The notes under the pieces: generated by a model
What the model saw: the letters and a program-made list of their open reading frames with translations, nothing else
Databases searched by the model: none
What the model was told of the DNA's origin: nothing
In this document: one piece after another, positions 7,261-40,163 of the stretch
Numbering within the stretch: the first letter of the stretch is position 1
Layout of the letters: each line of letters opens with the position of its first letter
Position numbers and translations under genes: made by a program
NCBI GenBank assembly: GCA_950106755.1
Contig: OX467088.1
Coordinates: forward strand, 3,952,001 to 4,016,000
Source of the DNA: Climacium dendroides
Taxonomy: Eukaryota > Streptophyta > Bryopsida > Hypnales > Climaciaceae
Direction: 5' to 3'
DNA: 64,000 bases

Positions 7261-8984
7261 CTTGCGCGTTCGAAAGTCATACTAACACTTATATTAACAT
7301 ACATTATAACCGTGATTATACTAACATGTACTTGTTTTAAGTTTTTTTTGTGATTTTTGAAAATACGGCGAAGCTTTGACTTCATGTGTTACAATTGTTT
7401 TCGCAATTTTAGTGATTCCTCAAAGCACGGTGAAGCTTTGAACCTTGAAGTCCTAAAAATTCCCATCGGATAGTAGTTACCATCATTTTCATCAAGCTTA
7501 GTGACCAAAACACTACTTGAAAAAAAACCAAGTTTAGCCTCCAAAAGGATAGAGTCAAGTCCTACGTTTGAGTTAGAAAGAAGACTTCAAAGGGTTTGCC
7601 CAATAACCCTTAGAGTTCTTTTTTTGTTGTTGAAGTGTGTTTTATTTTGAGACATTGAGGAGAGAAAACCAAAATACCAAAACAAAAATTTTCAGAGCTG
7701 AAGGTCTTGGGCACCCTAAGGACGGGCTGTAAGCTACCAAAGGAGGGTCAGTGTCCGGGGTGCTCAAGGAGATTCGACCAATCACACTCCGCCACGTGGC
7801 ACCTCCAAGAAAAAAAGGGGACTGGCCTTGCAACTGGCCGATCTGTGAGGTAATCGAGACTGCGACTCGACTTTGGACTGTCTGGGCTCCTAGACGAACT
7901 AACTGCGACTCCGACTCTAGACTATTTGAGATCTGGTTTGGACAGATCTCACATTTTTTTGGATTTCTGAAGCTTTTGAAAACATAGATTAGGAACTAAA
8001 ATAGTTTAAACAAAAACAATAAATTAAATTAGGAGAAGAAGGGATAGAATTAGGATAGAAGTTAGGAAAGGAAACAAAGTAGATTAAACAAAACTCTTCA
8101 AACTTCAAAATAGGCTCTCAATTCAAAATAGTTCTAATACTCACACTCAGATTGAAGAAAAAAAAACGAGAAGGAAGTTGGAGAGTTGTAGTTTAGAATA
8201 GAAGCTTGAAGTGACAATTGGGGTTGAAGTATGGAATGACACTTAGAAGAGTCGGGAGATGAAGGAAAAAAATTGGGATTTAGAAGATTAGGTGAAAATC
8301 TTAAAGAGTCAATTGAAACCACTAAGACCTTTGGATAGAATAATAATTGACCAAGATAAGATAGGAGGTAGAAGGTCAATTATTGTTTAGAGATTTGAAA
8401 TCAATTATTATTCCAAAACAAGTCAACTCTTGGGATAGCCAAATAATTGAATGTGAATATTTTAGAAGGGAAAGAAGAATAGAGAAGGAAAAGAGACAAC
8501 AAGTAGTTAGAAGTAGAAGTTAGAATTTCGAAAGACTTTGTATTAAAATTGCATCTTTAAGCCGTGGGCAAAACTACCAAATACCCTCAAAACATGGTAA
8601 ATGATGGAGAGTTCAAAGGGGTATTCAACTACCTACATGAGGATGCCAACTCTGAGGTAAGTTACTAACTTCTACCTATAATTTTGAATTATAAAAAATA
8701 GATAATTTCGCATAGGACCGAATTGGAACGTTAAGTCAGAGTGCCTAGAATAGAACTTTTATAGAAGTCAGGTAGCCTTAGTTGTAGATCTTAGTTAGAG
8801 GTTTCCAAAATTAAATTATACTTTGAAATCGGAGTTAAATTGAGTAAGATAGGGCTGGATGAAGTTTGGTAGTGGTTTTGGATGAAAGTAACTTTCATCC
8901 TATAAGGACAAGTGTAGCGATTAGTCGGACCAGTATTCCTCCAGTTAGCCCTTAATTCACACCAAAGGCCCACTTAGAGTACAC
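7261..8984. other. No recognisable gene; unclassified intergenic DNA
   Basis: Only short ORFs are present, none with recognisable motifs. The stretch 7980-8560 is rich in the words TTAGGA and GAAG on the plus strand and may be leader or spacer DNA of a decayed LTR element. Confidence 0.5.
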
Positions 8985-10590
8985 CGCTCCGGAATCGGTC
9001 CCACGAGGACTTGAGGTTTACAGATCTATAGGATAACTCAATCTAAGCATTCACTTTCTCTCTGTCAGACTACTCCGGACTATAGGTCCGGTCCGTTCAC
9101 TAGTGACGGATGGGTTCCGGAAGAATCCGGAAATTGTTCGGTGCCCCTTTCGGGATCCTTGGGTTTCGGTGATGAGTGGCCAGATCCACTGTCCGGATGC
9201 TTACCGTGTCCGGAAACACACTCTCTTTCTCTCTTTCTCTCTAATACTAGTACTAACCTAACTCTCAAGGACTGGAAGTGTTCTCCTGTTCTGTCACCTC
9301 ACAAATCCGGAAGGCTTTCCGGATTAGGTCACGTAGGGACGGTCAAGGACTACAACGACATTCTAACCTTAACCGAGCACTGAGCCTTCTGTCGACCGGG
9401 TGGGTTTCCTTATACTCTCTTGGGGTTGCGCTGGGGCTTTGACTTTGTTCTACAGAGAATTTCGGCAATTTGAAATTCCGGCACGTCTTGCAACACTTCC
9501 GCATACGAAAGTTGCTAGCAGCCTCTCAGATATCCCTTTCACCTAAGGCGGTATCTTACACGCAGGCTATACCGACATCCGAGCAGTACTACACTAACAC
9601 TACTGCCGGAACCATCCGGTTGATCTCCCCATCAAGTTAGTACACTCGGAAACCACTCACGAAATCAACTCTTGCTACACAAGGTAAGTTTTCAGTCTCC
9701 GGAAAAGCAAAAATGAACCTACACCTTCCACAAACATGTACCGCCTACAAAAAGATAAGAGAACGGATACTCCACACACTTGGAATTAAGTTCAAAAAGG
9801 TACAATGCTGGAACTATGGAATGGCTGCGAATGACCAAAAAGGCCATCAAAACTCCTACTTATATTGAGACTAACATCATCCTAAAAATCCTACAAAACA
9901 TTCCTACTAGTCCGCTAGATTTTCGGTAAATTCCAGATCCTATTTTTTCGGCTTTGACGGCCGGACTCCGGTATTGCCGCTATACTACACTACTGTACAC
10001 TATTCCTTGGAATCCGGATCCTTGGGAAGAATATAGTCCTTCAGTAAATCCAACTTCACCTCCTTCCGGCCACTCTCCGGAGGAAACAGATTTGGACCCC
10101 TTTGTCCCCATCTTTGGACCTCCATGATATTGGGGTCCCTATCTACACTCCGGGTCCCGACTATCGGAACTTTCAGACTTCCCTGGGAATCCTTCTAGGT
10201 CTTCTTATGACGAGGAGAAGACTATACCGTCCGACCATTGTAAGCTTCCGGAGAAGTACCCGTCAGGTCGATGGTCGGGGTCACCGGAAGTAGATCTTCA
10301 CTTTCTTGGGGTACCACGGCTCCCCAGTCCACTTCTTCTGGTCTTCCGGATGGTGGTGAAAGTTCCGGATTCACCGGTACCACCGATGATACTTCAGTAA
10401 CCATGGGTTCCGGATTATTGCCTTCCGGAACCACCAAAGTTTGCGCGGAGGGGGAAGATGGAGTTACCGGATCTGACTTAGTGGGAGCCAAATACTCCAT
10501 CATCTCCCTCATCTCTGCCCGGGATGCGTCCATCCGTCTCGCCTGCTCTAACAAGCACTTGATAGGGCGAGCATTCCCAAATTTGTAGAC
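8985..10590 (-). mobile_element. TCCGG-rich unclassified element A (retroelement-like)
   Basis: The base composition changes sharply here: the words TCCGG and CCGGA recur every few dozen bases, unlike the AT-rich flanks. A second stretch of the same character lies at 32560-35860. The only notable ORF is on the minus strand (10554-10222). It is a low-complexity Pro/Ser/Glu-rich polypeptide resembling in style the Pro-rich C-terminus of the second ORF of element B. Neither LTRs nor terminal repeats could be defined by eye. The right border adjoins the gypsy gag leader. Confidence 0.4.
10222..10554 (-). CDS. Hypothetical Pro/Ser-rich protein of element A
   Basis: This 110-codon ORF has a short charged N-terminal segment followed by a Pro/Ser/Thr/Glu-rich tail. 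No domain is recognisable. Its position and composition parallel the end of the coiled-coil ORF of element B (34458-33511), so it is probably a remnant of the same kind of element rather than a host gene. Confidence 0.3.
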   Translation of the reverse strand: MLEQARRMDASRAEMREMMEYLAPTKSDPVTPSSPSAQTLVVPEGNNPEPMVTEVSSVVPVNPELSPPSGRPEEVDWGAVVPQESEDLLPVTPTIDLTGTSPEAYNGRTV

Positions 10591-12190: not shown

Positions 12191-13193
12191 TTGGTCGTAA
12201 CCAGAGGAGGCTCAAAAACTGATCCTACTGCTCTAATTGAACCTGAAGAAATTGAATCTCCAGATTCTAGCTCTCATAGTAGCTTACACCTTCATTCTTC
12301 CCAAGATTCTCCACAATTCTTTGATTTGCAGAACACATTGAAGGAAACTACCAAGGAAGTGAGATTTAATGATAACCTTCCCACGCAAACCGAATTGAAG
12401 GAAAATGAATTTCAATTCATTCAAGTAGGAACTCCGTTTCATCCACCAAGCCTTAGGTCTAGATCTAAAACAAGGAAAAGTAGTAACCTTTCTTCTCCAT
12501 ATGATCTATGGGATGACATGTCTAGAGCAAAAGCTAACATTTCTTTTGGACAGTTGATCAATGTAGCACCAACATTGTGGAAACAGTTCAAGGAGGGTGC
12601 TACAATTCTTAGAGCTCCAAAAATGGTAGGACAAGTCAACAAGGTAGAACCTTTGCCACTACTTAATCAGTTTGATGTTGATCTAGAGGAACCAAAAGTA
12701 GTGGTTATGAAACCAAAATCAGACCTTCAGAAGTCTATAGAAACCTTTGAGCTAGTTGAAATTGAAGTAGAAATTTTGGATAAGATCATTACAAAAACTT
12801 TAGTGGATGATGGAAGCGAGGCTAATATCATGCCTGCATTCACTGTGCGTAAATTAGGTCTTGAGATTACTCATCCATCTTTTGTTACTTTAAAATGTGC
12901 TGATCAAAGGTCGGTCAAAACCCTAGGCCGGATTAGAGATTTTAGGATCCAAACCGGAGGGGTAGATTATATGGTTACCTTTGAAGTTTTACAACTTGAA
13001 GAAGAAACCAACGGATCTTACCCTCTCTTTTTAGGTCGTGGATTCCTCTGCCAATGCGGTGGAGTGGTTAATTGGGTTGATAAGCATCCGACCTTTACCT
13101 ATAGACCTCAAAACACTAGGACCATGGTTGCAATTGTATCTAAAGGTCTGTTGTTAAACGGTGAATTAGAATTAGGACTACCATTGTTTCAAG
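12191..13193 (+). pseudogene. Ty3/gypsy protease region, interrupted by hAT insertion
   Basis: The open frame has an acidic, low-complexity first half and then a retropepsin-like segment. There, LVDDGSEANIM matches the D(S/T)G-type catalytic loop of plant gypsy proteases, with DDGS in place of the usual DTGS. It is followed by LGRIRDFRI and the strand/flap pattern FLGRGFL. The reading frame is cut after codon ...PLFQ by the hAT element. When the 8-bp duplication is counted once, the same frame continues at 26960 into the spacer before reverse transcriptase. Confidence 0.7.
13186..13193. repeat. hAT target-site duplication, left copy
   Basis: GTTTCAAG here is repeated exactly at 26952-26959. 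Eight base pairs is the hAT superfamily length. Confidence 0.93.
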
Positions 13194-13204
13194 CAGGGTT
13201 ATCT

Positions 13205-13450
13205 ATCCGGACGTGACGTGGGCTTTTCACATCCGGATGTCATGATGCGTCCGTCTTGACGTGTCGTGACGTCGTCAGGATCCGTCACCAATACTGACGT
13301 GACCGTTTCAGCATGGATGAAGTCTGTCCAGCTGTGGACGGACTCCTAGACGGCCTCCCAGACAATAAGCCGTCCCTCGGACGGGAAGACGTCACCTGGA
13401 CGGCAGGCCATTTCCGTTGGGCTTAGGGTCCACCCGTCGACACATCAGCC
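13205..13450. promoter_or_regulatory. Left-terminal CCGTC/GACGG motif cluster
   Basis: GACGG, CCGTC and GACGTGACG words are crowded here, including the dyad CCGTCCCTCGGACGG at about 13371-13385. The cluster lies between the element end and the transposase TATA box. The same words make up the other three arrays of this element and are absent from neighbouring DNA. Confidence 0.75.
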
Positions 13451-13506
13451 GCCTGCGTCAGTCCGTCTAGCTGGGTTTTAGGGTTTTAGGATCGCCCTGA
13501 AAGGTG

Positions 13507-13514
13507 TATATTAA
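13507..13514 (+). promoter_or_regulatory. TATA box of hAT transposase gene
   Basis: TATATTAA lies 222 bp before the transposase ATG and just downstream of the motif cluster. The kinase-like and RING genes of the same element have the same arrangement. Confidence 0.5.
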
Positions 13515-13728
13515 GGACTTACGCCTATTCAAGATTACTTTTCCTTGCTCATTTTGGCTTTCATGACTTGGTTGGAGTACAACCATTGCGGTAAAGCAAA
13601 ATCCAAGAAGAATGTGTTGTGGTGGCACTTGTTGTGAGAGCAACAAGTATTGCTTCTACATTGCATTTCATACAGAATACTAATCTTCTTTCTTGTGCAG
13701 GGGCAAGTAGGAAAGAATAGATAAAGCA

Positions 13729-16700
13729 ATGGGTGGAGGAAGATCACATTGGGAACCTTGGTACACACTACGAGTGGATGGAAAAGTTGCTTGCAAGTTT
13801 TGCGAAGCTTTGCTAAGCTATCGAAAAGATCGGTTGCTTTTCCATTTGGGGTACCGACAAATAGACAAGCTCCCTGGAGTGAGAGCCTACACTAAAGTTA
13901 GTGCAGCCGTGAAGCTAATGTTTTTTAATTGCGGAGGGGACATACTTGCAAGCACTTCGGACAGGAGTGGACAGGATGTGGAAGTGACATCTCCATCAAT
14001 GGTACTTCCGAGTGTTGTACGTGGTGAGCAAGAACCTGATGCCTCAATCTCAGGAAACGATGGAGGAGAAAACACTAGGGGACAGAGCTCTCAAGTACGA
14101 TCATCAGATGCACCCAACCCGAGTTTGGCCCAGAGTCGATCAATGAGGCAATTGTCTGTGCAAGAAGGAATGAATACATCAAACAAGCAAGTACTAGACA
14201 AAAAGTGGGCTAAGTTCTTCTATGAAGCCAATATACCTTTCAATGTAGCGAGGCATCCGGCTTTTTTGGATGCCATGAAATCAACATCAGAATCGAGAGT
14301 AGGCTACAAACCTCCAGCGTACCATGCACTTCGTACAAACCTCATGAAATTTACAAAAGACGAAGTGGCGGCAATGGTAGCGGAGAAGACAAAGGCACCA
14401 ATCCACAAGTACAGCGTTACAATATGCTCTGATGGATGGGACAATGTCAACCATCGACCATTGATGAATGTCATGTTGGCATGTACAAGTGGAGAGGTAT
14501 TTCTTGGATCCATAGACACAACAGGCGAACGCAAAGATGCTACTTATGTGGCTAATTGCATGGGTAATTATATTGACATGGTAGGGGCGCAAAATGTGGT
14601 ACAAGTTTGTACAGACAATGCAGGGAACATGTTGGCTGCTAGTGCTTTGTTACTTCGTCGATTTCCACACTTATATTTTCAAGGGTGTTCAGCACATGCA
14701 CTTGACCTTTTACTTGAAGATTGGGGCAAATAAGATTGGATAAAAAGTATGGTCAAGTAGCCAAGTCAATTGTGAAATACATTCGCACACATCACATGCC
14801 ACTTGCAATTTTTCGACGACATTCTCCTAATCTCATTTTGAAGAATCCCGTTGAAACACGCTTTGCAACCATGTTCCTTATGATTGAGCATTTGGTACAT
14901 GTGAGGGTAGCGATAGAATCAACAGTCCACGATCCGCAATGGAATGAGTACACAGAGAGATTGACATCAGAGGAAAAGAAAAGAAAAGCCAACGATGTGC
15001 GACGGTATGTACGAACGGATGAATTTTGGAGAAGATGTTTAAACTTTGTGCACGTAGTGGAGCCCGTATTGGTTGCTCTTAGAGAGTTTGATGGCAAGCG
15101 CCCATGCTTAGACAAGGCATGGCTTGTGATGAAAAAGGTGGAAAAGCATGTTTTATCTCTATGGGATCCACCATTTTCTTTAGAACCACGGTATGCAATT
15201 CCTGCCATCGATGATTTCTACAAGCGTTGGGACATGCTAAGGACAGATTTGCATTATGCTGGGGCTCTATTGAATCCTTTTTTACTTGACGAAGTTTTGC
15301 TAATGGATGATGACGAGGCAAGAGAAGGCATATTGAGAGTATTGCACAAATTGGCTGTTCCAGATCAAGCATTTGCTTCAGCTTTGTCTGAGTACCAAGC
15401 ATTTCGAGATCGTCGGGGCATTTTTGGTGGACTGCCCGATGTAAACAATTTAAATTTGCAGCCTCACGAATGGTGGGACCTTCTCGGAGCCGGTGCTCGT
15501 ACACTTGTACCAATTGTAAAAAAGATCCTCGCCCATGTGTGCTCTGCATCGTCGTGTGAACGCAATTGGAGCATGTATTCGTTTGTCCACAACAAATCAC
15601 GCAATAGACTGACATCAGAGCGTGTTCAAGAATTGGTTTACATTTACACCAATTCCAAAACTCTTAGAGAAAGGGCTGCAGCAAATTCGACAAGGTGGTA
15701 CACCGAGAACATGATGTCAAAAGATTCCATGACCGATGAATCGGATGGTCTAGACCGTGGTTCGGTTCGCTCTAACCCCAATGATGATGATTCAGATGAC
15801 AATTCCAATGATGGCGATGACCCACCATTCCATGGATTTCAGGGGGCGAGAGGAGTGTGTCCTCTAATTGATGCATCTGTATTTGACTTTGAAGAGGGGG
15901 ATAATAACGACAATGACCACGAGGGATATGATGGAAGTCCAACACAAATGCCACAAGGGTGGAATGTTGGGCCAAGCAGGGGAAATACGAATGAAGACAT
16001 TGTGGCACCGAGATCACTAAATCCAGATTCTATCGATGTACAAGTTGATGCCCCAATGGAAAGAGATAGTGTTGACATGGAAAGAGGACGTGAACAAGAC
16101 GTAGTAGTACCACAATCATTGCCTATGAGGACCACCCACGGAGAAGGGCCCCCTCATAGTGGAGAATTAGATATGCCCCCTCCAAGTCAAGGGGATGTTG
16201 CACTACAACGTCAAACACCAATACTAGAGAATCTACAAATTCAAAGTTCTGCCAGGCCATCTAATTCCGGAGTTCGTCTACATGGACCCACTTCAACGAT
16301 AGGTACATGATTGGCTAGTATGGTGTTCCAGCATACGACTACAAACCCGACTTCATTGCACCCACCTACACGTGCCAATAATCGTCGGAAGCATCCACGA
16401 CATGAAGGTACTACTAGTCAACGTGTGAGTCCTAGAACATGTAGAAGACTAACGAGAGAAGAAGCGGCATCCCAACCATTTTCAAGAAAAGTTCACATAG
16501 GAGGGCCTAGTATAGATGGCATTATAGACGCAACGGGCCAACGGCCTATTCGAACGTTGTCTTCTATAATTCGACCACAACGAAATCAAAATTCGAATGC
16601 CTCTAGCGAAAGTGGTAGTGCAACATCCAGTGATGAGGGCGAGTCCATCGATGCTAGTATAGGCGAAGATGGTGAGGTTCCAAGAGATAGTGATTATCTA

Positions 16701-16811
16701 GGGACAGTGCCTCGACAAGGTCCACGAGTAGAAAGTGGTGGTAATGAACCAATTGTAGCAGAAGTAAATGCCAATACTTCTAGGCGCATTCTTAGGCATG
16801 GAAGACGTTGA
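13729..16811 (+). pseudogene. hAT transposase (BED, DUF659, hAT dimerisation), nearly intact
   Basis: The protein would bind the element ends and cut and paste it. The N-terminus has a BED-type zinc finger (WEPWY, CKFC, then a HLGY His segment). DUF659 follows, with SDGWDN (Asp codon 14431) and CTDNAGN (Asp codon 14614). After the break come a long helical region and the dimerisation domain with SSCERNWSMYSFV (Glu codon 15558), so D-D-E and the conserved Trp are kept. The C-terminal 280 residues are acidic low-complexity. Damage: a TAA plus frameshift at about 14721-14735 and an in-frame TGA at 16308-16310, after which the frame stays open to 16811. A short intron at the first break cannot be fully excluded. 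The start at 13729 precedes the BED domain directly. Confidence 0.9.
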
Positions 16812-17394
16812 ATGTTTTTCAAAAGACAATAGGATCTTCATGTTTTCAAATGCAATGGATTTTGAGGCTCAATACCTTACATTTTGAAATCGGCATTAAT
16901 ATGAAGTAGTACTTTTGTTCCTTTCATTCTATCCTTCATTTATGGTAAGGGTTTCAATTTATTTTGATACATATTGTAACTAATATGATTTGATTTCCAT
17001 GTTTAGCTTTTCTAAAATCAAAATAAATAGATTTTTTCATTAAATTAAAAAAGGCATAACTAGAAAATGGTTTCTTATACTAGCCAAAAATATTAAAATA
17101 TTCTACTGATTTTGAATAAAAAGATAAATTTGGGTTGATAGTCAAATTTGACTTTAAGGTGTTTGTTGTAGTTGTTTACTTGTTTGAGGTGTGATAAAAA
17201 AAAGATACACTCAATGTTTAGATAAAATACATTTATATATATAAAAAAACGAGTACAAAATGGATTGAGGGCACAAAGTGTGCTACATTGCTATGGATGT
17301 CCTGAAGCCGATACTATAATAACCACATTTGCTAAGAAAACATTAATTTTGCAAATCTATAGTAATACACTATCATCTAATCCTCATTGCACGC
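16812..17394. other. AT-rich spacer between convergent genes
   Basis: This separates the 3' ends of the plus-strand transposase and the minus-strand kinase-like gene inside the hAT element. It is AT-rich, has poly(A)-signal-like AATAAA words on both strands, and contains no ORF of note. Confidence 0.6.
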
Positions 17395-19038
17395 TTATTC
17401 ATCTTGAAGGTCTTGTTCTTTCCGGGCCTCGCGGTAGCAATCCACGGGTGGTGTCCAAAACGTTGGAGCACCACTTAGACGTTGCACGGCAAATGTCACT
17501 GAGCGTCGTTGTAGTGGCTCCACCTTGCACAATTCACCCAGTATCGCTTGAAATGTACCAAATGCTGTATGGTCAGAAATCATCTCTGTATTTTCGCGAT
17601 CCTTTTTCCATACCTTCATAGCCAATCTCCCTATGGAGTATCCATCCGTGTGTATACTAACAGATGGTGGCTTACCCATGCGACTAGGAGATGTTGAAGT
17701 TCCTGTCTCTCCAACCATGTACATCAACTCCGGAGCCACCTACCAACGTTGCTTGCGAGTTGCCTGCAACTTATTTGCACAACTGAATTGGTAAAGAGAA
17801 GGGGTTTCTTCATTGATGCGGCTACCCATTTCCCAATTACATAGACCAATCCACACGGTTCTTCCATCGTCATTCGGAAAGTGAAGCATGATGTTCTCCG
17901 ATGTGATGTCGTTGTGCAGTATTGAACATTGTTGCACTGCATCCACAATGCAGAGCAACGCCCACGCAAGTTCGGTGCGCTTCCGTCTGTATGCCATAAG
18001 TCGTTTCATGGCTTGCATTGTTTGTGGAGTTGCATGGTAAGCCACCTCCCCAATTTCGTCTGGGTCTCGGGTCTTCTCATCAAGGGTAAACATGACGCCC
18101 AGAGTACCTCCATTCCACCATTGAGAATAACACTCCATGGTCATGTCATTTATGACAAAGAATTTGATGACCCCTGGATGATCGCATGGACAAACCAATG
18201 CCTCAATGGACAACTTCTCCCTTGACTTCTTCAAGTCATCAACGCGCACGGCCGACTTCCCAGCTAATTCCATATTCTCGGGAATATGGTTCGAATTCTG
18301 AAGACAAACCTTGCGCACCCTCCTGTGCCCCCCTTGTTTGTTATGGCCAGACAACGGAACCACCACAACTCCTCTCTCCAGAAAAACCACTCCACCTACA
18401 GCTTGTTGACCAAAGGCCAAGTTTTGACTTCGCTGAAACCACGGAGCAGAACGGATGTTGTTTGAAGATAGTCCCCGCATTGCTTCATGCCACCAATACA
18501 CCTTCTTGTGCAACAAATTCAATGCTTGTTGTTTGGGAACTACACTCTTTTGAAAGCCTTTGATTTTTTCCGCAACTTGGGCAAGGTTGAAGATGCATGT
18601 TTGCACTTGTGACTCCAGCCAATGATTGAAGTATTCCTTTGTGCGGTCTTTCAACCACTCATCCTCGCTCATTGTTGTCCAAAACATGTGGTGGAACTTT
18701 TGTTTGATGGCATCCACCCCCTGTAATCCGTGCGACACATATGTTGTGTTCAACTGCGGAATCGAATACTGCTCAAAAAAACCCAACGCCACTTCATGCA
18801 ATTTGCGCGTTGCAACCTTGCTTGGCCACTTCTCTGGATTTGTGGCCTTGTGCCTTTTCCGTTACTTTTTCTTCGACTTCGAAGACTCTCCCGCACCCAC
18901 AATTGCTATGGCTCCTTCTGCAGCTACAGCCTCTGAAATCTGGCTTTCTGATTCCGCAGACGGGTCCAAACTCGTTCCATCTCCAACTCCTGAAAACTAC
19001 GCATCAACCTTCCTCTTCGAGAAATCGCGACCAGCCAT
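17395..19038 (-). pseudogene. Pseudokinase-like gene carried by the hAT element
   Basis: One minus-strand frame runs from ATG at 19038 to 17395 (548 codons). It has three in-frame stops (18997-18999 TAG, 18862-18864 TAA, 17740-17742 TAG) and no frameshift. The C-terminal half has a protein-kinase plan: a helix-C-like IEALVCPCDHPGVIKF, a hinge with NGG, LHNDITSENIML in place of HRDLKPxNIxL, an APELM motif after the third stop, and DGYSIGRLAMKVW as the alpha-F segment. The VAIK lysine and the DFG motif are not recognisable (IGLCNWE at the DFG position), so it is probably a pseudokinase. The N-terminal 330 residues are unfamiliar and begin with a basic KKK.RKRHK stretch. Promoter: TATATAAT and a 20-bp motif array lie upstream. 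Confidence 0.75.
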
Positions 19039-19223
19039 TGTGATAGTAGTGATAATCCAAAGGAATTAGGAATTCAGGTTCCACAAAGTGAAAAAACGCC
19101 CCCTTACCCTCAAACCAGCCTCTCACAAGCACCCGCGCTCCCAAGCAAGGACTGCAACCAATCCAAGACAAGCGAGCACCGTCAGAGCAAGAGAGACTAT
19201 GGCAGAAATGAATCCAACCCCCT

Positions 19224-19231
19224 ATTATATA
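19224..19231 (-). promoter_or_regulatory. TATA box of pseudokinase-like gene
   Basis: The minus strand reads GGGTATATAATAGG, 193 bp before the ATG. It lies between that gene and the 20-bp repeat array. Confidence 0.5.
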
Positions 19232-19255
19232 CCCATTTCCTCTCAACGGCATAAC

Positions 19256-19630
19256 CGTCGAGCTGGACGAGCATGCCGTCCACATCGACGGGCATGCCGT
19301 CGAGAGAACAGACAGGTTGTCGAGAGGACAGTCATGCCGTCGAGAGGACAGTCATGCCGTCGAGAGGACGGACAGGCCGTCGAGAGGACGGTCATGCCGT
19401 CGAGAGGACGGTCATGCCGTCGAGAGGACGGTTGTGCCGTCGAGAGGACGGACAGGCCGTCGAGAGGATGGTTGTGCCGTCGAGAGGACGGACAGGCTGT
19501 CTAGAAGACGGTCATGCTGTCGACAGGACGGACATGCCGTCGAGTGGACGATCGCGTCGTCCAGATCGACGATCATGCTGTCAAGAGGACGGACTCCGTC
19601 CCCCATCCACGGGCGTCCAGGGCGTCCAGG
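19256..19630. repeat. Tandem 20-bp array of CCGTC-N5-GACGG dyads
   Basis: About fifteen units of a 20-bp repeat (consensus GCCGTCGAGAGGACGGTCAT) run in phase. Each unit contains the perfect inverted motif CCGTC-GAGAG-GACGG. The array lies directly upstream of the TATA box of the minus-strand pseudokinase-like gene. Long ORFs across it on both strands are artefacts of the repeat having a period of 20. Confidence 0.92.
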
Positions 19631-20576
19631 GGACGAAAAGATCGTCGAAACAAGCTGTCACCCAAAGTGCTGGAAGCATGGAATTAATTGCGAATCCTTG
19701 TTCGGGGAATTTTTCAATTATCTTGTTTTCCACCCTGGGACTTGTCAGGACAGGTGTCCATGTTTGAACTACTACATTGTCTATGGTGGCGGGAAGTTTT
19801 GGAGTGCCAATTAGATGTTCACGTTTGTTCCTATGGATGTACAAATAAATACCAATAATGACTTTCAAATGTAGATGAAGGGTTTAGGGTTTAGGTTCGA
19901 ATAAAATGGAATTTTATTTAGTTGCACATAAATAAAGGGAAAAACATAGACCAAAATTACAAAAGGGCATATTCAAAACATCCTAATTTAAGACCTGGAA
20001 TATTTTTGATGTTCACATAAAAAATTGGGTCAACTCATTTGCACCCATAATAAGAAAGTTGTGGCCAATGTTTGTATTACAACGATCAAGGCATCCCCTC
20101 ACAACTTAAATAATTTATATGGATCAAATTTAAATGCAATGAATTTTAGAATTCCATATAGAGTAATTTCACCATTGGGATTATTGTAATTTGATTCCAA
20201 GCTTCCCTATATGTAAGTGCACCTAACAATTTCACAATTTAGTATTTCTTGAATATTCAACCTGCATATACTCAATACAAACATACAAACATTCACTAAT
20301 TTACTAAGTCCATATCAAATATACAAAATCAAAGACAAAATGGCCCTCTAAAAGCTAAACTCTGATATAGTAAACTTAATTTTAAAATCGTTCATTAAAA
20401 AAGATATCTAAAAAATCCTAAACAAAAATGTATAATATAGAATCATTGATTCATTACAAATTTTCTTACTTCTTGCATTTGATCCAATACACCAAAACAA
20501 GAGGACTTCCCCTATCTATGCTGAAAGATAAACTTATACTCTGACTTATGTTTCCAAGTAAATCCTAAACTCTAAT

Positions 20577-20770
20577 AATCTATACCCTATACCCTAAACC
20601 CTAAACCCTAAACCCTATACTCTATACACTATACCCTAAACCCTATACTCTATACACTATATCCTAAACCCTATACGCTATACTTTGTACCCTATATCCT
20701 AAATCCTATACGCTATACTTTGTACCCTATACCCTAAACCCCACACCCTATATCCTAAACCTATACCTTA
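20577..20770. repeat. Degenerate telomere-like CCCTAAA tract
   Basis: The tract consists of CCCTAAA, CCCTATA and near variants in loose tandem (three perfect CCCTAAA in a row near 20593). It is interstitial: unique element sequence continues on both sides. The same sort of tract recurs briefly at 36404-36440. Confidence 0.85.
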
Positions 20771-21264
20771 AATGCTCTTTCTTATTTTCCTTTTAAGACT
20801 ATTTGATGTTGCTCAACTTTATGTGATTTTAGCAAATAATTTCAAATTGAAGTAAGACCAAATCCAAAAATAGATGAATGGATTCTAATATTTCATATAG
20901 TTTTCTAACAAATGTTTCGCCGAAAACCGTAATATATTACATTTGTCCTTTGGGTTGAAATTTTGATCTAGTTTCTTGTCCTATATACTAAAAGTCTTTT
21001 AACTAATGGTTTTAGTTTAATTTAGGATACTAACACTTTTGAATCTAAAACTCATATCTATACTTTACTTATTCCCTATTACATTAAAAGTGAACCGATA
21101 TGGTGTTTCACAGAATAGAATTTAGATAATTAAAGAATATATAATCTTTAAATGGAAATACTGACATCCTCATATAACCGCTAGTTAATTCTCAAAATCA
21201 TAGAATCATGCAAGTTGACTGAAGTGTGAAGCCAAGAATACCTTAACATCCATAATATTCCCTG

Positions 21265-21370
21265 TACCTTTATAATATCACATTTTAACACTATGTGATG
21301 TTACAGAAGTGGAGTGGCTGTTGCAATTTTGTATTATTATACGGTGTTAAAATGTGATATTATAAAGGTA
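21265..21370. mobile_element. 106-bp MITE with 27-bp perfect inverted repeats
   Basis: The first 27 bases (TACCTTTATAATATCACA...) pair perfectly with the last 27, leaving a loop of about 50 bp. No transposase is present. A third partial match (TAATATCACACTATG) follows at 21382. I cannot define the target duplication with certainty, so the superfamily is open. Confidence 0.75.
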
Positions 21371-21889
21371 TTGGACCTCTGTAATATCACACTATGTAAA
21401 ATTATGGTATTACAAAGGACCTTGTGATTTTAGTAGTATGATAGTGGTTGGCGCTTGCTATGCTACACATTCATCATTTGAATTTTATTGAATTTCTATG
21501 TATTAGATAAAATAAAGAACACAAATTTCAATAAACCTTCAAATAAAAGTTTCAATAAACCTTCCATTTACTACTAAAATCTTTATAAATTTTTTTTATA
21601 AATAAGAATATATTGAAATATAAAATAAATATTTATTGAATGATGAATGAAATATATCCAATGGTGAATGTTGTAAAAGATAAAATATATAATAAAATGC
21701 ATTAGTAATTTGACTCAATTGTTACAAACAATGGCAAAACAAATTGAAGAATTGAAAAGAAAACTTGTAAATCTCAAAAACGTTTTAAACAACTTTGTTG
21801 AGAGATCCAAAATTGCTTCAATTGAATGAATTTTTCACATCATTTGGTAGTAGCAATAAAAAATTTCAATCATGAACACACAAAGGGCA

Positions 21890-22370
21890 AGCCGTCAAGG
21901 GGACGGGCAAGCCGTCGAGGGGACGGGCAGGCCGTCCAGCTCAACAGACAAGTCGTCGAGGGGACGGGTAGGCCATCCTGCTCGACAGACAAGCCGTCGA
22001 GGGGACGGGCAAGCCGTCCAGCTTGATGGACAAGCCGTCGAGGGGACGGATAAGCCGTCCAGCTCGACAGACAAGCCGTCGAGGGGACGGGCAAGCCGTC
22101 GAGGGGACGGGCAGGCCGTCCAGAAGGACGGGCAAGCTGTCGAAGGAACTCGCGGGCGGCGCCGTAATGATTTTTCAGTCCTCTTTTCGGCGTCGCGGAC
22201 GGCGCCGTAATGATTTTCCAATCCTTTTTTCGACGCCCCGCGCCTTCGGATGGCTTTCCAAACTTGTCCCGAACCTCTGGACAGCTTTCCAATCCTGTCC
22301 CGAACCTTCGTGGATGGATTGATCGTCCATTCCAAGGCCGTCCCACATCCCTGGACGCTCTGGATTCGAG
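21890..22370. repeat. Tandem 20-21-bp dyad array upstream of the RING gene
   Basis: About twelve units occupy 21890-22145. They alternate AAGCCGTCGAGGGGACGGGC (dyad CCGTC-N5-GACGG) with a variant containing CCGTCCAGCTCGACAGAC. Then come two copies of a roughly 48-bp unit with GGACGGCGCCGTAATGATTTT (22148-22240) and two of a CTTTCCAA...TGTCCCGAACCT unit (22250-22308). The array abuts the RING gene promoter and shares its motif with the other arrays of this hAT element. Confidence 0.9.
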
Positions 22371-22427
22371 CTGGACGACATGATTACGTCCTAATCACCG
22401 AGCGTAATTGGGTTGGTAATTTGGAGC

Positions 22428-22435
22428 TATAAGTA
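22428..22435 (+). promoter_or_regulatory. TATA box of RING gene
   Basis: TATAAGTA lies 220 bp before the ATG at 22648, almost the same spacing as in the transposase gene. Confidence 0.45.
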
Positions 22436-22647
22436 TGTTTATTGGGCTCATTTGAAATCGCTTCCTCTTTTGAGTTGCTTTGTCCTTGCTTGAGAAAGCT
22501 TTGCATTGTAATTCGAGAGGAAGTGTTATACATCTGGCATTTGTTTTGCCACTTTTCAGTTGCCTTCACGCAACAGAAGGCAAAGCAAATTGTCAGTGTA
22601 TCTGCAAACAGACTACAGGTACAGGGAATTTGAGACAGGTATCCAAA

Positions 22648-24852
22648 ATGGACGAAGAGGATGCAACACGAGGTTCAGGACATGGAGGTGAGCCTGCAAA
22701 TAAAAAAAAGAGGGGGAACAGGGCAACCTTGGATTGGGGCACACTCAATGTTCCGGAGATTCTGGCAAACGAGGGGTGGATGAATGAAGATTCACTGTGG
22801 ACAAGAGTGACGTGTCAGAAGTTCGTAGATTGGGCCCACATTAACCGCCATTGGGCATCTGACCGGTACGAGGTAAATGTGAAATCCGGGGTTGTAAATT
22901 TCGACCAGTGCCGACATTCGCACTTCAAGAAGAGATTGATTGAAGTGGCATTGGCGATTTGGGGTTCGAGATCCAGAAGAGATGGGACCCTTTCGTTGTG
23001 CCAAATGGCATATGCGGAAGTTTTTCTTAGGAAGGATGTGGATTGGAGAACCTTCCTCAGCAAGATGCGTCATGGTCAATCACCAAATAGACCTCGCAGC
23101 ATTCCACCAAACCTTGCCGTGCCATTGGACAATGTATCCAATGTGCAAGAAAACCCGAAAGAGCAAGTGGAGCAACCCGGGATGCAGGTGATGGAGGTAG
23201 AAGGTGGCATGGGCACCGAAGAAGACCTACCCAATGAAGATGCAATTGGTGGAGTGGAAGGTGAAGGTGATGAAGTACTTCGCTTGCGACAATTAGTCCA
23301 AACACTGCAAGCAGAAAAGGAAGCCGCATTACGACAACATGCTGCAGAGTTGGAAGGGCAAAGGGCTAGGGTAAAGACCCTTATGGATGAGAATGCAAGA
23401 CTCATCGCACGCGAGGCTGATCTCGTAGCACGTGAAAGGCGGTTGAGTACAGACGAAATTCCACCACTTGATGTGGTGGTCGAACGTGCTACATACGGTG
23501 CAGACGAAGACAGACCAGGCCCCAACAATGCAAACGAGTTTAGGGTGCAGTCACGGTCCTTGTTTCCAAGTGTTGGAGGTGCCACGTTGGATATTATGCG
23601 TGCACGTGCGGAGCGAGCTGAAGCAGAGGTTGGAAGTACTAAAGTCCACGTTGAAGAATTGACAAACGCTATGCGCGGTTTGGAACTTCGCACCAACAAA
23701 GCCGAGGCAAATGTGGTGCTGCTTACTACAGCTCAAGCTGGCTTGGAGCAGACCATGACCGCATTAAGTGCTCAAAATATGCGGTTGGTCCAAAACCCGC
23801 AGAAGGAACGCATGCTGCTTCAAATGTGCAACATGAAGTTGACATGCAGCTTAGCACTAAGCGAGGTTGAGCAGATGCAACGTGAAGTGAAGAGAGTGGC
23901 TGCGGAGTTCAATGATGGCGGCGAACGTTATTTTGGCTTGACCTCGTGGCCTCGAGTGGAAGAAATGTTCACTGATGATTTGCCAGTGAAGCTCGAGAAT
24001 GCAAGCATCGATTGGAATAGTTCTCCACGCTTGGAATTTCAATACGACACGGAGCGCTATCGATACGAGCCAGCGAACGGAGATGGGATTAGGCCACTAG
24101 TGTGGCCTTTGGTTCCCGATTTTGTACAAGACGACACCACATGTATTATGTGCCAAGAACCATTTGGCCCCGAGGGTGGATGGCATCTTGGTACATGTGG
24201 CCATTTATACCACCCCATGTGCCTCATTCTACACATGGTCACCCGAAAAAGATGTGCACAATGCAAGGCTCCATTTCATCCGAGGCTGTACAAAATGTTT
24301 GGCCTCCAAGCCCACATGCCTGAACATTACGAGCACAATGAAGAAAATTTACCGAGGCCCGCGAATAGAACGCATTAGGGGATGGACATGACTTGGCTTT
24401 GGAAGTGGGGCCACGACAATCGACACCTCCCGGCAAGAACAGTCGCGGAGATACACTGGGAGAATGATGACGCGGTGACAGAGGTGATTAAGAGGGTAAT
24501 TGGAGATGGTGATCCAGGGCGGCGATTATATTTTGGTCAAATTGCTGGTGGACATTGGGACCCGGACCTCTCCATTTTTGTGCGTGCACCACATCCACAA
24601 GGCATAATGTTTAACTCTCAAGGCATGCCTGTCGGATTTGAAGGTGAATTGAATTTTGAGGAAGAAATGATCTACATTGAAGACAATACCTTCCATGAGC
24701 CTGCACTTGTGAGTGCCATTTTCTCCCATTTACACAACAGATACGATCGTGACGCACATCAACTTTTGACGACTTTGCAATCAAGAGAAGAGTTGCAAAG
24801 ATTTTTGAGAAGCAGCATAGCACGAGGCATTGTAATTGAAGAAATAGAATAG
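22648..24852 (+). pseudogene. Coiled-coil RING-finger protein carried by the hAT element
   Basis: From ATG 22648 one frame runs to 24852 (735 codons), broken only by a TAG at 24376-24378. Order of parts: a basic N-terminal tail (NKKKRGN); a conserved domain of about 140 residues ending DVDWRTFLSKMRHGQ; an acidic linker; long coiled coils (about residues 205-290 and 315-435, heptad-like, rich in A/E/R/L); then a RING-type zinc site at about residues 497-540. There, CIMC, CGHLYH, C and CAQC give a C-C-C-H-H-C-C-C ligand order. After the stop comes a C-terminal domain with the pattern GHWDPDLSIFVRAPHPQG. RING domains usually mark E3 ubiquitin ligases; that role is inferred. A related copy lies at 29035-30955. 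The start is the first ATG of the frame after the leader. Confidence 0.8.
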
Positions 24853-26394
24853 ATAGTTTTGGATGACGTTGTGTACAAATAGATAGATGCATAGAATTAA
24901 ATTTCTAAAGTTGTACAAAGTAGAGCAATGTAAAGCCTAAACCAATGTACCACGTTTTGATGGATTTATAAAACATTGTACATTTATCATTTTCTTTTCC
25001 CCTTGTGTATTGTTGCTTTGCCTTTGTCTTTTAGGTTAATCCATTGGCCGTTTTCCTATTAGTGTAGAAGAATCTTATATACTTAGATGGTAGAACCCTC
25101 ATGGATTATTATTTTTTTATTTCTTGCCAAACAATGTAAAATCAATTTAGCAACTTTTGTAATTAGAAATTCAATAACAAACTCTAATCCCTTATCCTTA
25201 GAATCTTAGATGCCCAAGGTTTGCTTTGAGCTTTGTAGAATTTGCTCTAAATTGAACAACATGTCAACATTTTCATTAGGTGTATCAATTTTCAAAAAAT
25301 TGTAATTGTATAAATTCGAACTAGGCATGTTAGTTACCTCATAGAAAAGGAATCCTAAACAATATCACTTATGGAGTAAAAGATTATAATGTTTGCCCAG
25401 GAGGGTGCTAAAACTAAAAAAATGATGTGAAGTCTTACAATCCTCTTTTCACAAGTCCAATTTAAAAAATTGGTGACCAAACAAATATGAAATTAGAGGA
25501 CCTAATATGTATAATCCCAATCAATTTATGACTTTTAAAAATCTATACCATAATTTTCTTTAATTTTAAATGAATTTTGAATGTGATTTTTCTTCCAAGA
25601 TCCAATGTTTTTGAGGCACATTTCCAAGACCTCTCAATACTACAACAAGTCAAGATTGCAATAGGTACCCTTGCACAAAGTTTAGAATAGAAAAATCACT
25701 ATCACATATTTTTAAGAACAGACTGTTTATGCTATAACTAGAATTCAAGAACAACTTTTTAACTTCAAAGTTTGAACAACACCAGATTTGGGTGCCTTGG
25801 GCATGTAGGGGTTAACCATTTTTTGGACGATGAACAAATTCAGCTTCCTATTTCAGTTTGGTTTTTGCTTGGATCAAAGTCATCCTAATTTTTGGTGATA
25901 CTTTATCTAGTTGACTAGTTCATATCTTATCTAATGGTTTGATTTGTTGTTCTTAGAATACACATTTTTTTAAAATTACAAATGTGGAAGTGTGTCAAGT
26001 GGTCAACTTGCATTGACCCTAGTTCAAAATTGGATTTGCAAAAATGAGGTCATAGATGTAAAGAGTATAAAAATTTCAAAAAATCACCATGTCAACGCAA
26101 CCTCATTTTAAGTCCATTCCAACAAATTTCAATCAAGGAATGATAATATTTTGCTTGTAATTGAATTTTGAAGGAATTTTGAATTTTTCCTTCCAAAATG
26201 TATAGAAAAAGATTGGTGATAGCATTGATGGATCTAACCTTACGGATGGAATCTACAACTCAAACTCTACAACTTCTATTTGTATACCAATTCCAAAATA
26301 TTCTTCTAAATCATACTTTATAATGGTATTTTCCAAATTGTCATTTTGGGAGAAGAATCCAAATGTTTAGGGGTTAAGTGCAACAAATTCAAAG
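24853..26394. other. AT-rich 3' part of hAT element with nested TTAA element
   Basis: No gene is evident. A TTAA-type non-autonomous element lies at 25202-25811, and a second terminus of the same kind (TTTAGGGG|TTAA) is at 26367-26377 without a clear partner. Confidence 0.6.
25202..25811 (-). mobile_element. Non-autonomous TTAA-flanked element, family I (inverted copy)
   Basis: The right end reads GGGCATGTAGGGG followed by TTAA (25812-25815). The left end is decayed (TTAG, then AATCTTAGATGCCC). The whole body matches, in reverse complement, the element at 54034-54680, including the inner ends ATGCCCAAGG and GAATTTGCTCT.AATTGAAC. There is no coding capacity. Confidence 0.7.
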
Positions 26395-26940
26395 CCCGTC
26401 CATCCTGACCGTCCAGCCAAACCATCCATCTTGACCGTCCATCCAGACCGTCCAGCCAATCCGTCTAGATCGACGGTCCAGATCGACCGTCCATCCAGAC
26501 CGTCTAGATCGACGGTCCTGATCGACCGTCCATCTCGGCCGTTCAACCGACCGTCCAGCCAGACCGTCTAGATCGACGGTCCAGATCGACCGTCCATCTC
26601 AATCGTCCAGCCGGACCGTCTAGATTGACCATCCAGCCAAGCCGTCCAGATCGACCGTCCAGCCAGACCGTTTAGATCGACGGTCCAGATGGACCGTCCA
26701 GGTCGACGGTCCATCTCGGCCATCCAACCGGACAGTCCAGATCAACCGTCCAGTCCAACCGTCCACATCGACCGTTCATCCAACCGTCCATCGCAGCCGT
26801 CCAGAGCTCCCGGCGACGAAGCTCGTCCATCCATTTCTGTAGTCTGAATCATCCTCTGTCGCCGGTTGTCATTTGGATTTCATCCTGACGGACGCTGGGG
26901 ATGGATCCGGACATCCTGACGGACGGACGTGACGTGACGG
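26395..26940. promoter_or_regulatory. Right-terminal CCGTC/GACGG motif array of hAT element
   Basis: Dozens of GACCGTCCA words recur about every 10-20 bp, with dyads such as CCGTCTAGATCGACGG (CCGTC-N6-GACGG) several times between 26455 and 26700. The array ends in GGACGGACGTGACGTGACGG next to the terminus. Such dense subterminal motifs are typical transposase-binding arrays in hAT and CACTA elements. Confidence 0.85.
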
Positions 26941-26951
26941 GGACAACCCTG

Positions 26952-26959
26952 GTTTCAAG
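26952..26959. repeat. hAT target-site duplication, right copy
   Basis: GTTTCAAG, identical to 13186-13193. Confidence 0.93.
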
Positions 26960-29034: not shown

Positions 29035-30955
29035 GTTCATCTTTTCATTGCGCGGGCGTAAATGTATCTCAAGTTAAACTTGGAAAGAGGGTAGACTGGT
29101 CTACTATGGTGGAAAGAGGCAACAAAATCAAAATGTCACATTTTACAAACGGATTAATTCCGATGAATGCGCGAAGGTATCCAAAGGGTGGATTGGGACA
29201 TTTCAGAACAATAGTGGAAGTGCCTTACGACAATTATATGACCGAAGAATCCTCTATAGATAATGATTCCAATAGTACACGTACGCTTCCACGACCACCA
29301 ACTACTCGGAGTCAGCAACGCATCAGAAGATGGAGGGCCCTATGAATGGATGAGCTTGAAGAAGGTGTTCCACCAGCAGTTCCTAATGAACTAGTCATTG
29401 AAGCACCAAATGAACCAGTTCTTGAAGCAAGTGAAGAAGAACCTCTTATCCCAATGCAAGAGGAAATAGATGTGCAGGTGGATACGGTTGAGAGTTTGAA
29501 GAAGGAGTTGAATGAAAAAATCAACAAACTTCAAGGACTATATGAAGATAGTCACAGATTGAGGGTGGAGTTGGAAGACAAGAACAATACCATCACCCGA
29601 CAATCCAAGAAATTGGTCGCTTGCAATGTGCTCTTGAAACGACCACAATAACTGATGAGGTTCTTTCCACAGTCGTAGAACCTCAAGATATTCCTGCAGC
29701 AAACGTCACAGTAGAGGATGGAGACCTTCTATCCCTTCTTGCATGGAATGTGGAGCTCCAAAAGCGTTTGGATGCATTGGTCTTGTAGTATTATCAGTGG
29801 AAGTTGGCATGCGTGTTCACCGTAGATAGGAACCGGCAAATGGCTGCCGAGTTCACTAAAATTTTCAACACATATCTTGAACACAATCAAGAGCGTGTCT
29901 TTGGCTTAACTTCTTGGGCCCTTGTGGACGACCTCTTCCAACCCAAGAAAATGGCGACCAAAGTCATCTTTGGAAATCAGACTGTCATTGATTGGGCTCA
30001 AAGTGGTTGGGATTTTCAGAATGCCATGTCTGCCTATGTGACCACCCCTAGTAAATTATTATGGCCAAAACCGTCTGCCTTTGTTGAAGACGGAATTCAG
30101 TGTATAATTTGTTTAAATAACTTTGGCCCGGAAGGTGGAATGCATTTGGGCATGTGTAGGCACTTGTATCACCCAATTTACTTGATCAGCTTAATGGTCA
30201 ACCGTAGATGCTATGCAGTGTACAAGGCTCCTTTCCACGAGCGTTTATATGAGTTGTTTGGCTTGGTCGAATTCATGCCACCAAGTTGGGAATTTGATGC
30301 CAACAATGCACCTGCCCATCCCAGCAAATGGGGAGAAGACCTTGTTTGGAATTGGTGGTACAAGTACCACTCGTTGGAGAAGTCCCGACTTTGTAATCAA
30401 TGGGGTTGGGAAAATGATTCAGATGTAGTTGTCAAAGTGTGCCACAACTTGATTAAAGGCACATCGGAAGCAAGCCAAGGAAAGAGGAATTTCTTCTTCC
30501 AATGCTTCAACGGGCATTGGGATGAAAATGAGAAGAAACTCCGATTTGGGCCCCACCCTCGGAACTGGCTTTGGGATAAAGATGGAGTGCGTATTAACGA
30601 GCACGAGGTGGTGGATATTGAGAGTGACAACGATGACGGATATGACATGCCTGGTCCACGAGAAAGAGTCATGATGTCGGAATCCAAGTGGAGAAACTAG
30701 TTCAAACTTGATGCGGTAGATTTTCTGTTGGACCAATATAGTCCGCAAACGCGTCAAGCGCTTGAAGAGCTCCAACAATCCCAAGTTTTGAGGGCCATAT
30801 TAGAGGAGGATGGGCCAGCTAGGCGAACTCAGTCTGCAGTCCGGAGGCTTCGCTTGGGCCCTAATGAAGACCACATTCTTGAATGCGGCATACATGATGA
30901 TGAAGCAGGTCCAAGTGGCACTGCTAGTAGTCCTATGGATGTGGACGAAGCCTAA
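29035..30955 (+). pseudogene. 5'-truncated second copy of the coiled-coil RING gene
   Basis: It begins within the N-terminal domain: KLGKRVDWSTMVERGNK aligns with RKDVDWRTFLSKMRHG of the hAT-borne gene. It proceeds through an acidic linker and shorter coiled coil (to 29651), then a long frame at 29804-30700. That frame carries GLTSWALVDDLF, the RING remnant (CIICLNNFGPEGGMHLGMC, H, H) and the C-terminal GHWDENEKKLRFGPHPRN motif. Two RING ligands are lost (HPIYL where HPMCL is expected, and CYAVY where CAQC is expected). Stops and shifts at 29343, 29650 and 30698 separate the pieces. A final acidic piece lies at 30728-30955. It is diverged enough to represent another family member. Confidence 0.7.
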
Positions 30956-35960: not shown

Positions 35961-36214
35961 CCTCTACTCCCCCATAGTACTCTATTCTGAGGTGTGCTCC
36001 ACGTCATGATTCCCAAAATCCATTTGACTTTAGCAATAAATTCTATGTTCGTGCTCCTACTGTTCAATGCCTTGACACTGTAAATACACGTGATTTTAGA
36101 ATTAATTTCATCACATGTATGCAGGATTCAAAGCAATTGCTACTTGCACCACTTCTCTAATTCTGAGGGCTTGGAAGAAGCTACAAACTTCTAGCCCTTT
36201 CCTCCCTCCAATAG

Positions 36215-36310
36215 CGTCTCCGCTTGGACGTCCCCGCCTCGTGACTGACATCCCCGCCCTTCCCTTCAAGTCCCTGCCTTTCAGTGTCCGTGCCCCAGCA
36301 TCAATTTTTG
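36215..36310. repeat. CGTCC-N-CGCC motif cluster 3
   Basis: A series of GACGTCCCCGCC, GACATCCCCGCC, AAGTCCCTGCC and TGTCCGTGCC at about 12-20-bp spacing. Confidence 0.7.
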
Positions 36311-36403
36311 AACATGTGCTCCAGGACTGCATAAAAGAGGGAGGCAAGTCTTGAACAGCACAACCCATTAAAATAGAAACCTTCATTCTTGAACCGTATA
36401 AAC

Positions 36404-36440
36404 CCTAAACCATATACCCTATACCCTAAACCCTAAACTC
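36404..36440. repeat. Short telomere-like CCCTAAA tract
   Basis: CCCTAAACC and CCCTATA words in loose tandem. Too short and too internal to be a chromosome end. Confidence 0.75.
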
Positions 36441-36444
36441 CAAA

Positions 36445-38510: not shown

Positions 38511-38516
38511 CCTTGG

Positions 38517-38690
38517 AGGTCCGTGCCCCAGCGTCTCCGCCCAAGAGGCTGGCTCGTGGTCCAACGTCCTCGCCTTGACAATACATCTTTGCTTGAGCGT
38601 CCATGCCCAGACAGTACTTTTGCGCCTCCCCTCAATGTCCGCGCTTGGTCTTTGCGTTCGCGCCCCAACGTGTCCGCCTTGCCCATTTCA
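38517..38690. repeat. CGTCC-N-CGCC motif cluster 4
   Basis: GGTCCGTGCCCC, GCGTCTCCGCCC, ACGTCCTCGCC, GCGTCCATGCCC, ATGTCCGCGC and CGTGTCCGCC appear in series. ORFs read across it on the plus strand are low-complexity artefacts. Confidence 0.75.
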
Positions 38691-39002
38691 CTAAACCACT
38701 TCCAAAGTTGGACGACTTGCCTGCAGCTTCAACTGTAAATCTTGTTTTCTTGAAACATCCTAAAGAGGGCTTGCCAAACTATGTTCAGGGCAGTTATGAA
38801 GGGCCACTTCTATCATTAATCCTTCAAGGACAGCCCCTAAACTAGTAATTCTAAACATGAATGTCCAATTCCCAATGAGTTTGTTTGTTGACCTTCCTAA
38901 CCTTTATATGTATGGATTTCTGAATATTCATTTGTATGAGATGAAAGTATGCTTTGTGATGACCTCCCTATTTTTATAAAATAAGGAGGGTGTTAGAATA
39001 GA

Positions 39003-39200
39003 GGGCCACCGAATCATACACTCCACAATTTTTTATTTTATTTGAAGACTACATTAGCAAAGGGCCACCGAATCATGCACTCCACAATTTTTTATTTTAT
39101 TTTCCGTGTACATGAGCAAAGGGCCACCAAATCATGCACCCCACAATTTTTTAATTCATTTTCCGTGTACATGAACAAAGGGCCACCAAATTACAAACAT
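39003..39200 (+). repeat. 59-bp tandem repeat, three full units and part of a fourth
   Basis: Units start with GGGCCACC(G/A)AATCAT at 39003, 39062 and 39121, and a truncated unit starts at 39180. Each contains CCCACAATTTTTTA or CTCCACAATTTTTTA. It is noncoding. Confidence 0.9.
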
Positions 39201-39989: not shown

Positions 39990-40150
39990 ACAACGTCCAC
40001 GCCCCTTGCGTTCTCGCCTAGTACGTCCTCGCCCAATCTGGGATCAACGTCTCCGCTTGGCCCTCCTACATCCCCGCTTGATCTTCCGCCGTTGCCTTCC
40101 TATCCACAGCGTCCCTGCCCCTACTCCACATGTCCCCGCCTCTATCTCGT
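39990..40150. promoter_or_regulatory. CGTCC-N-CGCC motif cluster 5, upstream of hAT transposase 2
   Basis: AACGTCCACGCCCC, TACGTCCTCGCCC, AACGTCTCCGCTTGG, ACATCCCCGCTTG, GCGTCCCTGCCCC and ATGTCCCCGCC run up to the TATA box. The arrangement is the counterpart of the GACGG cluster in front of the other transposase. Confidence 0.75.
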
Positions 40151-40155
40151 CCAGG

Positions 40156-40163
40156 TATATAAA
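40156..40163 (+). promoter_or_regulatory. TATA box of hAT transposase 2
   Basis: TATATAAA stands immediately after the motif cluster and about 290 bp before the BED-finger coding sequence. Confidence 0.55.

Follow-up and report, generated by a model that had tools for sequence, protein, structure and literature searches.

Half-site arrays at the ends and gene starts of multi-gene hAT elements in Climacium dendroides

In the CACTA element En/Spm, the protein TnpA binds motif clusters that overlap both its promoter and the ends of the element. Within the hAT superfamily, the Herves transposase binds short repeated subterminal motifs, and the same is said of Ac, Tol2 and Tag1 in the Herves report (PMC3143072). 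For the plant VANDAL elements, which are MULEs, two reports describe non-coding regions that hold tandem arrays of a motif, to which the element's own VANC protein binds; these arrays lie upstream of VANA21 and in the introns of VANB21 and VANC21, are gained and lost between copies, and carry motifs that differ by family (PMC5735166, PMC10398659). Here we describe a hAT element in a 64,000-bp stretch of the Climacium dendroides genome (contig OX467088.1, positions 3,952,001 to 4,016,000; hereafter the window, in which positions are counted unless a contig is named), where arrays of the half-site CCGTC/GACGG stand upstream of each of three genes and at the right end. An earlier note on this DNA knew of no described element with such an arrangement, which is too strong a claim, since VANDAL elements have motif arrays bound by their own VANC.

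The element, copy W of lineage I, interrupts a region that reads as Ty3/gypsy pol, with a weak protease-like match at 12191-13216 and a reverse transcriptase from 28308. Its assignment to hAT was borne out by the 8-bp target-site duplication, by the short CAGGG-type terminal inverted repeat (CAGGGTTRTC) and by a transposase with a C-terminal dimerisation region (Pfam DUF659, 5.2e-33; Dimer_Tnp_hAT, 3.1e-08). The element, its arrays and its genes are as follows.

13186..13193, left target-site duplication GTTTCAAG
13194..26951, plus strand, lineage I hAT element, 13,758 bp long, inverted termini CAGGGTTATC / CAGGGTTGTC
13194..13480, array 1, covering the transposase promoter and the left subterminal region; irregular, with 9 exact half-sites and a single exact dyad
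13729..16811, plus strand, hAT transposase gene; DUF659, Dimer_Tnp_hAT, BED-like C-C-H-C finger
17380..19038 (end approximate), minus strand, protein-kinase-like gene; relatives match PF00069
19240..19660, array 2, at the kinase promoter; repeats the unit CCGTCGAGAGGACGGTCATG with a period of 20 and has 23 half-sites and 7 exact dyads
21880..22400, array 3, at the promoter of the RING gene; has 20 half-sites and 7 exact dyads in units 20 and 41 bp long
22648..24852, plus strand, N-domain/coiled-coil/RING gene; ATG at 22648, conserved C-terminal part
26395..26951, array 4, right subterminal array; has 28 half-sites and 4 exact dyads, mainly as a 13-bp direct repeat (CCGTCCA...)
26952..26959, right target-site duplication GTTTCAAG

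The exact dyad CCGTC-N5/6-GACGG occurs 19 times in the window against 0.04 expected, with none of 100 shuffles reaching 19, and all 19 copies lie inside the four arrays; relaxed dyads (at most one mismatch, spacer 3-8) number 43, of which 41 are within arrays. The half-site counts of arrays 1 to 4 (9, 23, 20 and 28) compare with 1.5, 3.2, 2.4 and 5.2 expected, and none of 1000 dinucleotide shuffles reaches any of them. The earlier description of one dyad motif in four arrays is confirmed, with the corrections that array 1 has only one exact dyad and that array 4 is mostly made of direct repeats, with 19 CCGTC against 9 GACGG and four dyads. Given a right end dominated by direct half-site repeats, the emphasis on the dyad was too strong. 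Moreover, CCGTC-N5-GACGG and the opposite order, GACGG-N5-CCGTC, are found 13 times each in the window, because arrays 2 and 3 alternate half-sites about every 10 bp. The part common to all four arrays is the half-site CCGTC; lineage I has five unit types, which have the arms CCGTC/GACGG in common and differ in their spacers. Among variants one base away from CCGTC, the two CpG transitions are over-represented (19 and 20, where 5.9 and 7.7 would be expected), as would fit arrays that were methylated and now decay. Between arrays 2 and 3, at 20565-20772, W also holds telomere-like tandem repeats of CCCTAAA/CCCTATA, which, like the protein families, would suit a green plant as host.

Gene starts were compared in five elements of this one genome: W and its sister copy E2 in lineage I, and the three diverged relatives B, C and H in lineage II, whose transposases and kinases are 37-39% and 27-29% identical to the lineage I proteins. 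E2 (C1:15935752-15950102, 14,351 bp, 8-bp target-site duplication CATGCTAC) is 84-96% identical to W by segment, with the lowest values in arrays 3 and 4. It carries the same four arrays, with 18 exact dyads and 117 half-sites versus 19 and 84 in W; array 1 has six exact dyads in E2 (period 19) and one in W, so the arrays grow and shrink. E2 is itself inserted into C, a member of the family's lineage II. B (C1:13063474-13080557, 17,084 bp, 8-bp target-site duplication CTTAAAAT) has genes for a RING protein, a transposase (37-39% identical to P0017), a RING-N protein and a kinase (27% to P0007), and its half-sites are related to those of lineage I but different (CGGTCGG/CCGACCG and CCGTCCG, with GGACGTCC near the left end). 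C and H, both read only in part, share about 70% identity with B. Two further copies are closer to B: Ra, which matches it at about 97% (8-bp target-site duplication CATCCACA, judged by eye), and Rg, a partial copy.

With a threshold of at least 5 CCGWC per 250 bp in the region from -700 to -150 of each start, cut at element ends, an array lies upstream of all 16 gene starts (W 3, E2 3, B 4, C 4, H 2), with 5-26 CCGWC per 250 bp. The threshold is likewise reached at all seven starts that are independent of locus finding, having no listed dyad place (the four of C, B RING, B transposase and H RING-N). Among control windows 57 of 1605 reach it, at two places only, the right end of E2 and an internal array of B.

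We then compared the promoters by their 6-mers against dinucleotide shuffles, counting a pair as alike at z > 3. Promoters of the same element are alike in 19 of 22 pairs (18 of 21 without one overlapping pair), and between elements of one lineage the same gene is alike in 10 of 11 pairs and different genes in 23 of 30. Across lineages, only 1 of 18 pairs of the same gene and 9 of 90 pairs of different genes are alike. An earlier run on hand-picked arrays agreed, with a median z of 5.1 within elements and -0.6 for the same gene across lineages.

A decayed third lineage is present in the right flank of W, at 29606-30811 and about 36190-44600.

29606-30811, RING relic of lineage III
39663-39385, N-domain fragment of lineage III
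40428-42424, transposase of lineage III (38-44% identical to P0017 and 44-54% to P0025 over the main pieces)

Its clusters consist of GTC(C/T)NCGC(C/T), which by raw counts has no site in the lineage I element and one in B. The divergent region between its transposase and N-domain gene has four CCGWC and four lineage III sites. Elsewhere outside W, a small GC-rich cluster of four CCGWC is located at about 57202-57451. Scans of viral and genome contig collections returned no relatives; the sole match, a viral contig, proved unrelated on reading.

The arrays lie close to promoters whose TATA boxes stand at set distances from the ATG. Each of the three arrays upstream of the genes of W is followed by a TATA box and a leader of the length given previously (222, 193 and 220 bp), and these distances were confirmed.

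13507..13514, plus strand, TATA-like box TATATTAA of the transposase gene, 222 bp upstream of its ATG
19224..19231, minus strand, TATA box TATATAAT, 193 bp before the kinase ATG
22428..22435, plus strand, TATA-like box TATAAGTA of the RING gene, 220 bp upstream of its ATG (22648)

Across the family, where TATA boxes were sought from -320 to -150 relative to the ATG, the distance is 190-194 bp in four of five kinases (the box of B is degraded, at 179) and 220-222 bp in the two lineage I RING genes and the three lineage II RING-N genes. It is 209 and 281 bp in the lineage II RING genes, and in transposases 222-223 bp for lineage I and 271 and 253 bp for lineage II. In six of the eight non-transposase promoters of lineage II, TATA has an exact half-site within 10 bp on either side; C RING is one of the six, although its upstream half-site overlaps the eight-letter TATA call by one base. 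Around the TATA of C RING-N and H RING-N stand variants of the half-site that differ in one base. The two lineage II transposase promoters are without such flanking half-sites (gaps of 88 and 122 bp), and in lineage I a distance of 11-85 bp separates TATA from the closest half-site upstream.

All three genes of W are broken. The transposase has a frameshift near 14733 and a stop at 16308-16310, the kinase three in-frame stops and another stop five codons short of the family C-terminus, and the RING gene one in-frame stop at 24376-24378. In E2 the transposase is frameshifted, the RING gene has one stop and the kinase is open to five codons before the family end. Open relatives exist, among them the transposase P0017 (1030 residues, 77% identical to that of W) and several kinases of about 550 residues. 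The ratio of nonsynonymous to synonymous substitution rates (dN/dS) between B and C or H is 0.24-0.27 for the kinase, 0.15-0.17 for RING-N, 0.19 for the transposase and 0.19 for RING (160 codons), at a synonymous divergence (dS) of 0.9-1.5. These values indicate purifying selection on the genes of this hAT family, so that the extra ones, kinase and RING, have been maintained in working form. The RING-like domain scores at or below the Pfam cutoffs. A Scenedesmus protein recorded as RNF32 (P0077) combines RING, DUF659 and Dimer_Tnp_hAT, possibly through an annotation fusion of neighbouring genes. The jgi relatives P0020 (transposase) and P0011 (kinase) both have 6480 bases as their longest contig, which fits linkage elsewhere without proving it.

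We consider it fairly probable that the arrays are lineage-specific operator clusters, at ends and promoters, to which the element directs one sequence-specific DNA-binding protein of its own; the best candidate is the hAT transposase. The earlier interpretation of the arrays as transposase-binding sites recruited as promoter modules is thereby supported in part. That a protein binds the arrays, which protein it is and what its binding does, we infer. The candidate binder, the transposase, would act through its BED-like finger. Binding at both end arrays would serve transposition, binding at the promoter arrays would set transcription, by activation or by autorepression, and binding might also keep the element free of silencing; half-site and binder would change in step from lineage to lineage, every array of an element holding to a single motif as the lineages diverge. 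The simplest way to bring together the findings on other hAT transposases and on VANDAL elements is a transposase whose end-binding sites spread to every promoter and now co-evolve with it. As for the finger, its C-x2-C, H and C are kept in the transposase relatives as judged by eye, with the last Cys replaced by Tyr in W, and Pfam calls no BED domain in W, P0017, P0018 or P0022. It is less conserved than the core of the protein, both between P0017 and P0018 (41/63 positions versus 119/153 and 79/95) and between B and C (47/80 versus 126/150), as would be expected if the transposase were the binder, although this is no proof of it.

Several points weigh against this interpretation. The loci were mostly found through the motif, and the form CCGWC was chosen after lineage II had been seen. 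While no cargo gene without an array was found in lineages I and II, gene X of the decayed lineage III, one of its three starts, has neither CCGWC nor lineage III motif sites upstream. The internal array of B (element positions 8960-9480), in a region common to Ra and Rg, has no gene behind it. The right-end arrays of lineage I are barely above shuffles in their 6-mer likeness to the promoter arrays (z of 2.4, 0.1 and 1.8 in W, and -2.8, 3.3 and 3.7 in E2). The lower conservation of the finger can have other causes. Higher dN/dS values also occur, namely 0.41 for the C-H kinase, 0.52 and 0.56 for W-E2, and 0.99-1.89 among the near-identical B, Ra and Rg, the last on few changes.

As binder, the main rival to the transposase would be the N-domain/coiled-coil/RING protein or the RING-N paralogue, acting as a VANC analogue, with the transposase using the termini only. 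A relative of the N-domain is present in all three lineages, the coiled coils that are predicted with low confidence (mean pLDDT, the predicted local distance difference test, 39.8) would suit a dyad, and in VANDAL elements the array binder VANC differs from the transposase VANA (PMC5735166). On the other hand, the N-domain is without a known DNA-binding domain: Pfam finds nothing in lineage I and in two of four lineage II sequences, the other two having only weak zf-C3HC matches (E = 1.2e-4, above the cutoff, and 0.044). The structure models of the RING protein (mean pLDDT as above) and of its N-domain (39.5) are both unusable. We regard this rival as rather unlikely.

Less likely still is that the arrays are binding sites for a host transcription factor, or serve as CpG-rich promoter DNA, which the element merely exploits. 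It would account for the CpG observed/expected ratio of 1.08-1.30 in the arrays versus 0.17-0.78 in the other parts measured, and for TATA boxes at set distances. A host factor, however, is not expected to favour a different motif per lineage in one genome, and orthologous promoters are alike across lineages in just one of 18 pairs; furthermore, the window outside W has only two 250-bp bins with at least 4 CCGWC, one of which is the lineage III promoter. An equally improbable alternative is neutral satellite turnover, in which promoters were duplicated within an element and owe their likeness to slippage and gene conversion, without any binding function. The expansion and contraction of arrays between copies and the homogeneity of units inside an array agree with it. 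What speaks against it is that periods and spacers vary between the arrays of one element while the arms stay, that arrays persist at all eight gene starts of B and C despite a dS of 0.9-1.5, and that half-sites flank TATA in six of the eight non-transposase promoters of lineage II.

For the part of the genome covered by the listed dyad places, contig C1 as far as 17.8 Mb, we reject the idea of a satellite unrelated to the hAT copies, since 34 of the 50 forward places listed (of 2042 in the genome) have a family gene within 3 kb. Of the other sixteen, twelve were examined and have none; of these twelve, five are in stretches of 2.5-3 kb without a family gene and seven are CCGTCGGATCCGACGG. This 16-mer, found in loci L018, L020 and L023 and at one place in L019, centres long near-perfect palindromes in the six cases read, away from the hAT family.

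Returning to a self-encoded binder, we compared the arrays with the described systems. They resemble the target arrays of VANDAL/VANC in Arabidopsis in being tandem, non-coding, lineage-specific and subject to turnover between copies, with the right ends of lineage I as the exception. They differ in belonging to the hAT rather than the MULE (MURA-type) superfamily, with genes for a hAT transposase, a kinase and RING proteins, and in standing at every gene start read as well as at the ends. In VANDAL elements the binder is the element-encoded VANC, which removes silencing, a role that would be hypothetical for the hAT arrays; no VANC domain (DUF1985 or DUF287) is among the Pfam matches of the open reading frames of the window and their relatives (two scans, 10 proteins each). 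With Ac, Tol2, Tag1 and Herves they share short repeated motifs near both ends, and differ in arrays at internal promoters 5-9 kb from the left end. En/Spm has one promoter only, belongs to another superfamily, and its TnpA is not a hAT transposase. A comparable hAT element with arrays at every gene was not found in a literature search that had most subscription journals outside its reach. On our best reading, the system would work like the target arrays of VANDAL/VANC, in an unrelated superfamily.

A broader proposal, which we put forward tentatively and hold somewhat less probable than not to be correct in full, is a multi-gene hAT transposon organised as a regulon. One self-encoded binder, co-evolving with its half-site, would act on arrays at both ends and around each TATA, so that a single lineage-specific switch would couple transposition, escape from silencing and the expression of the kinase and the RING ligase. 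A VANC-like target system would then have arisen a second time, outside the MULEs, and merged with end recognition by the transposase. If true, a cut-and-paste transposon would have regulon-like control, with end recognition and gene control running through one site that diverges by lineage, and there would be a second system, unrelated to the VANDAL elements, for the co-evolution of a protein with its target arrays, in hAT elements with kinase and RING genes on which purifying selection acts.

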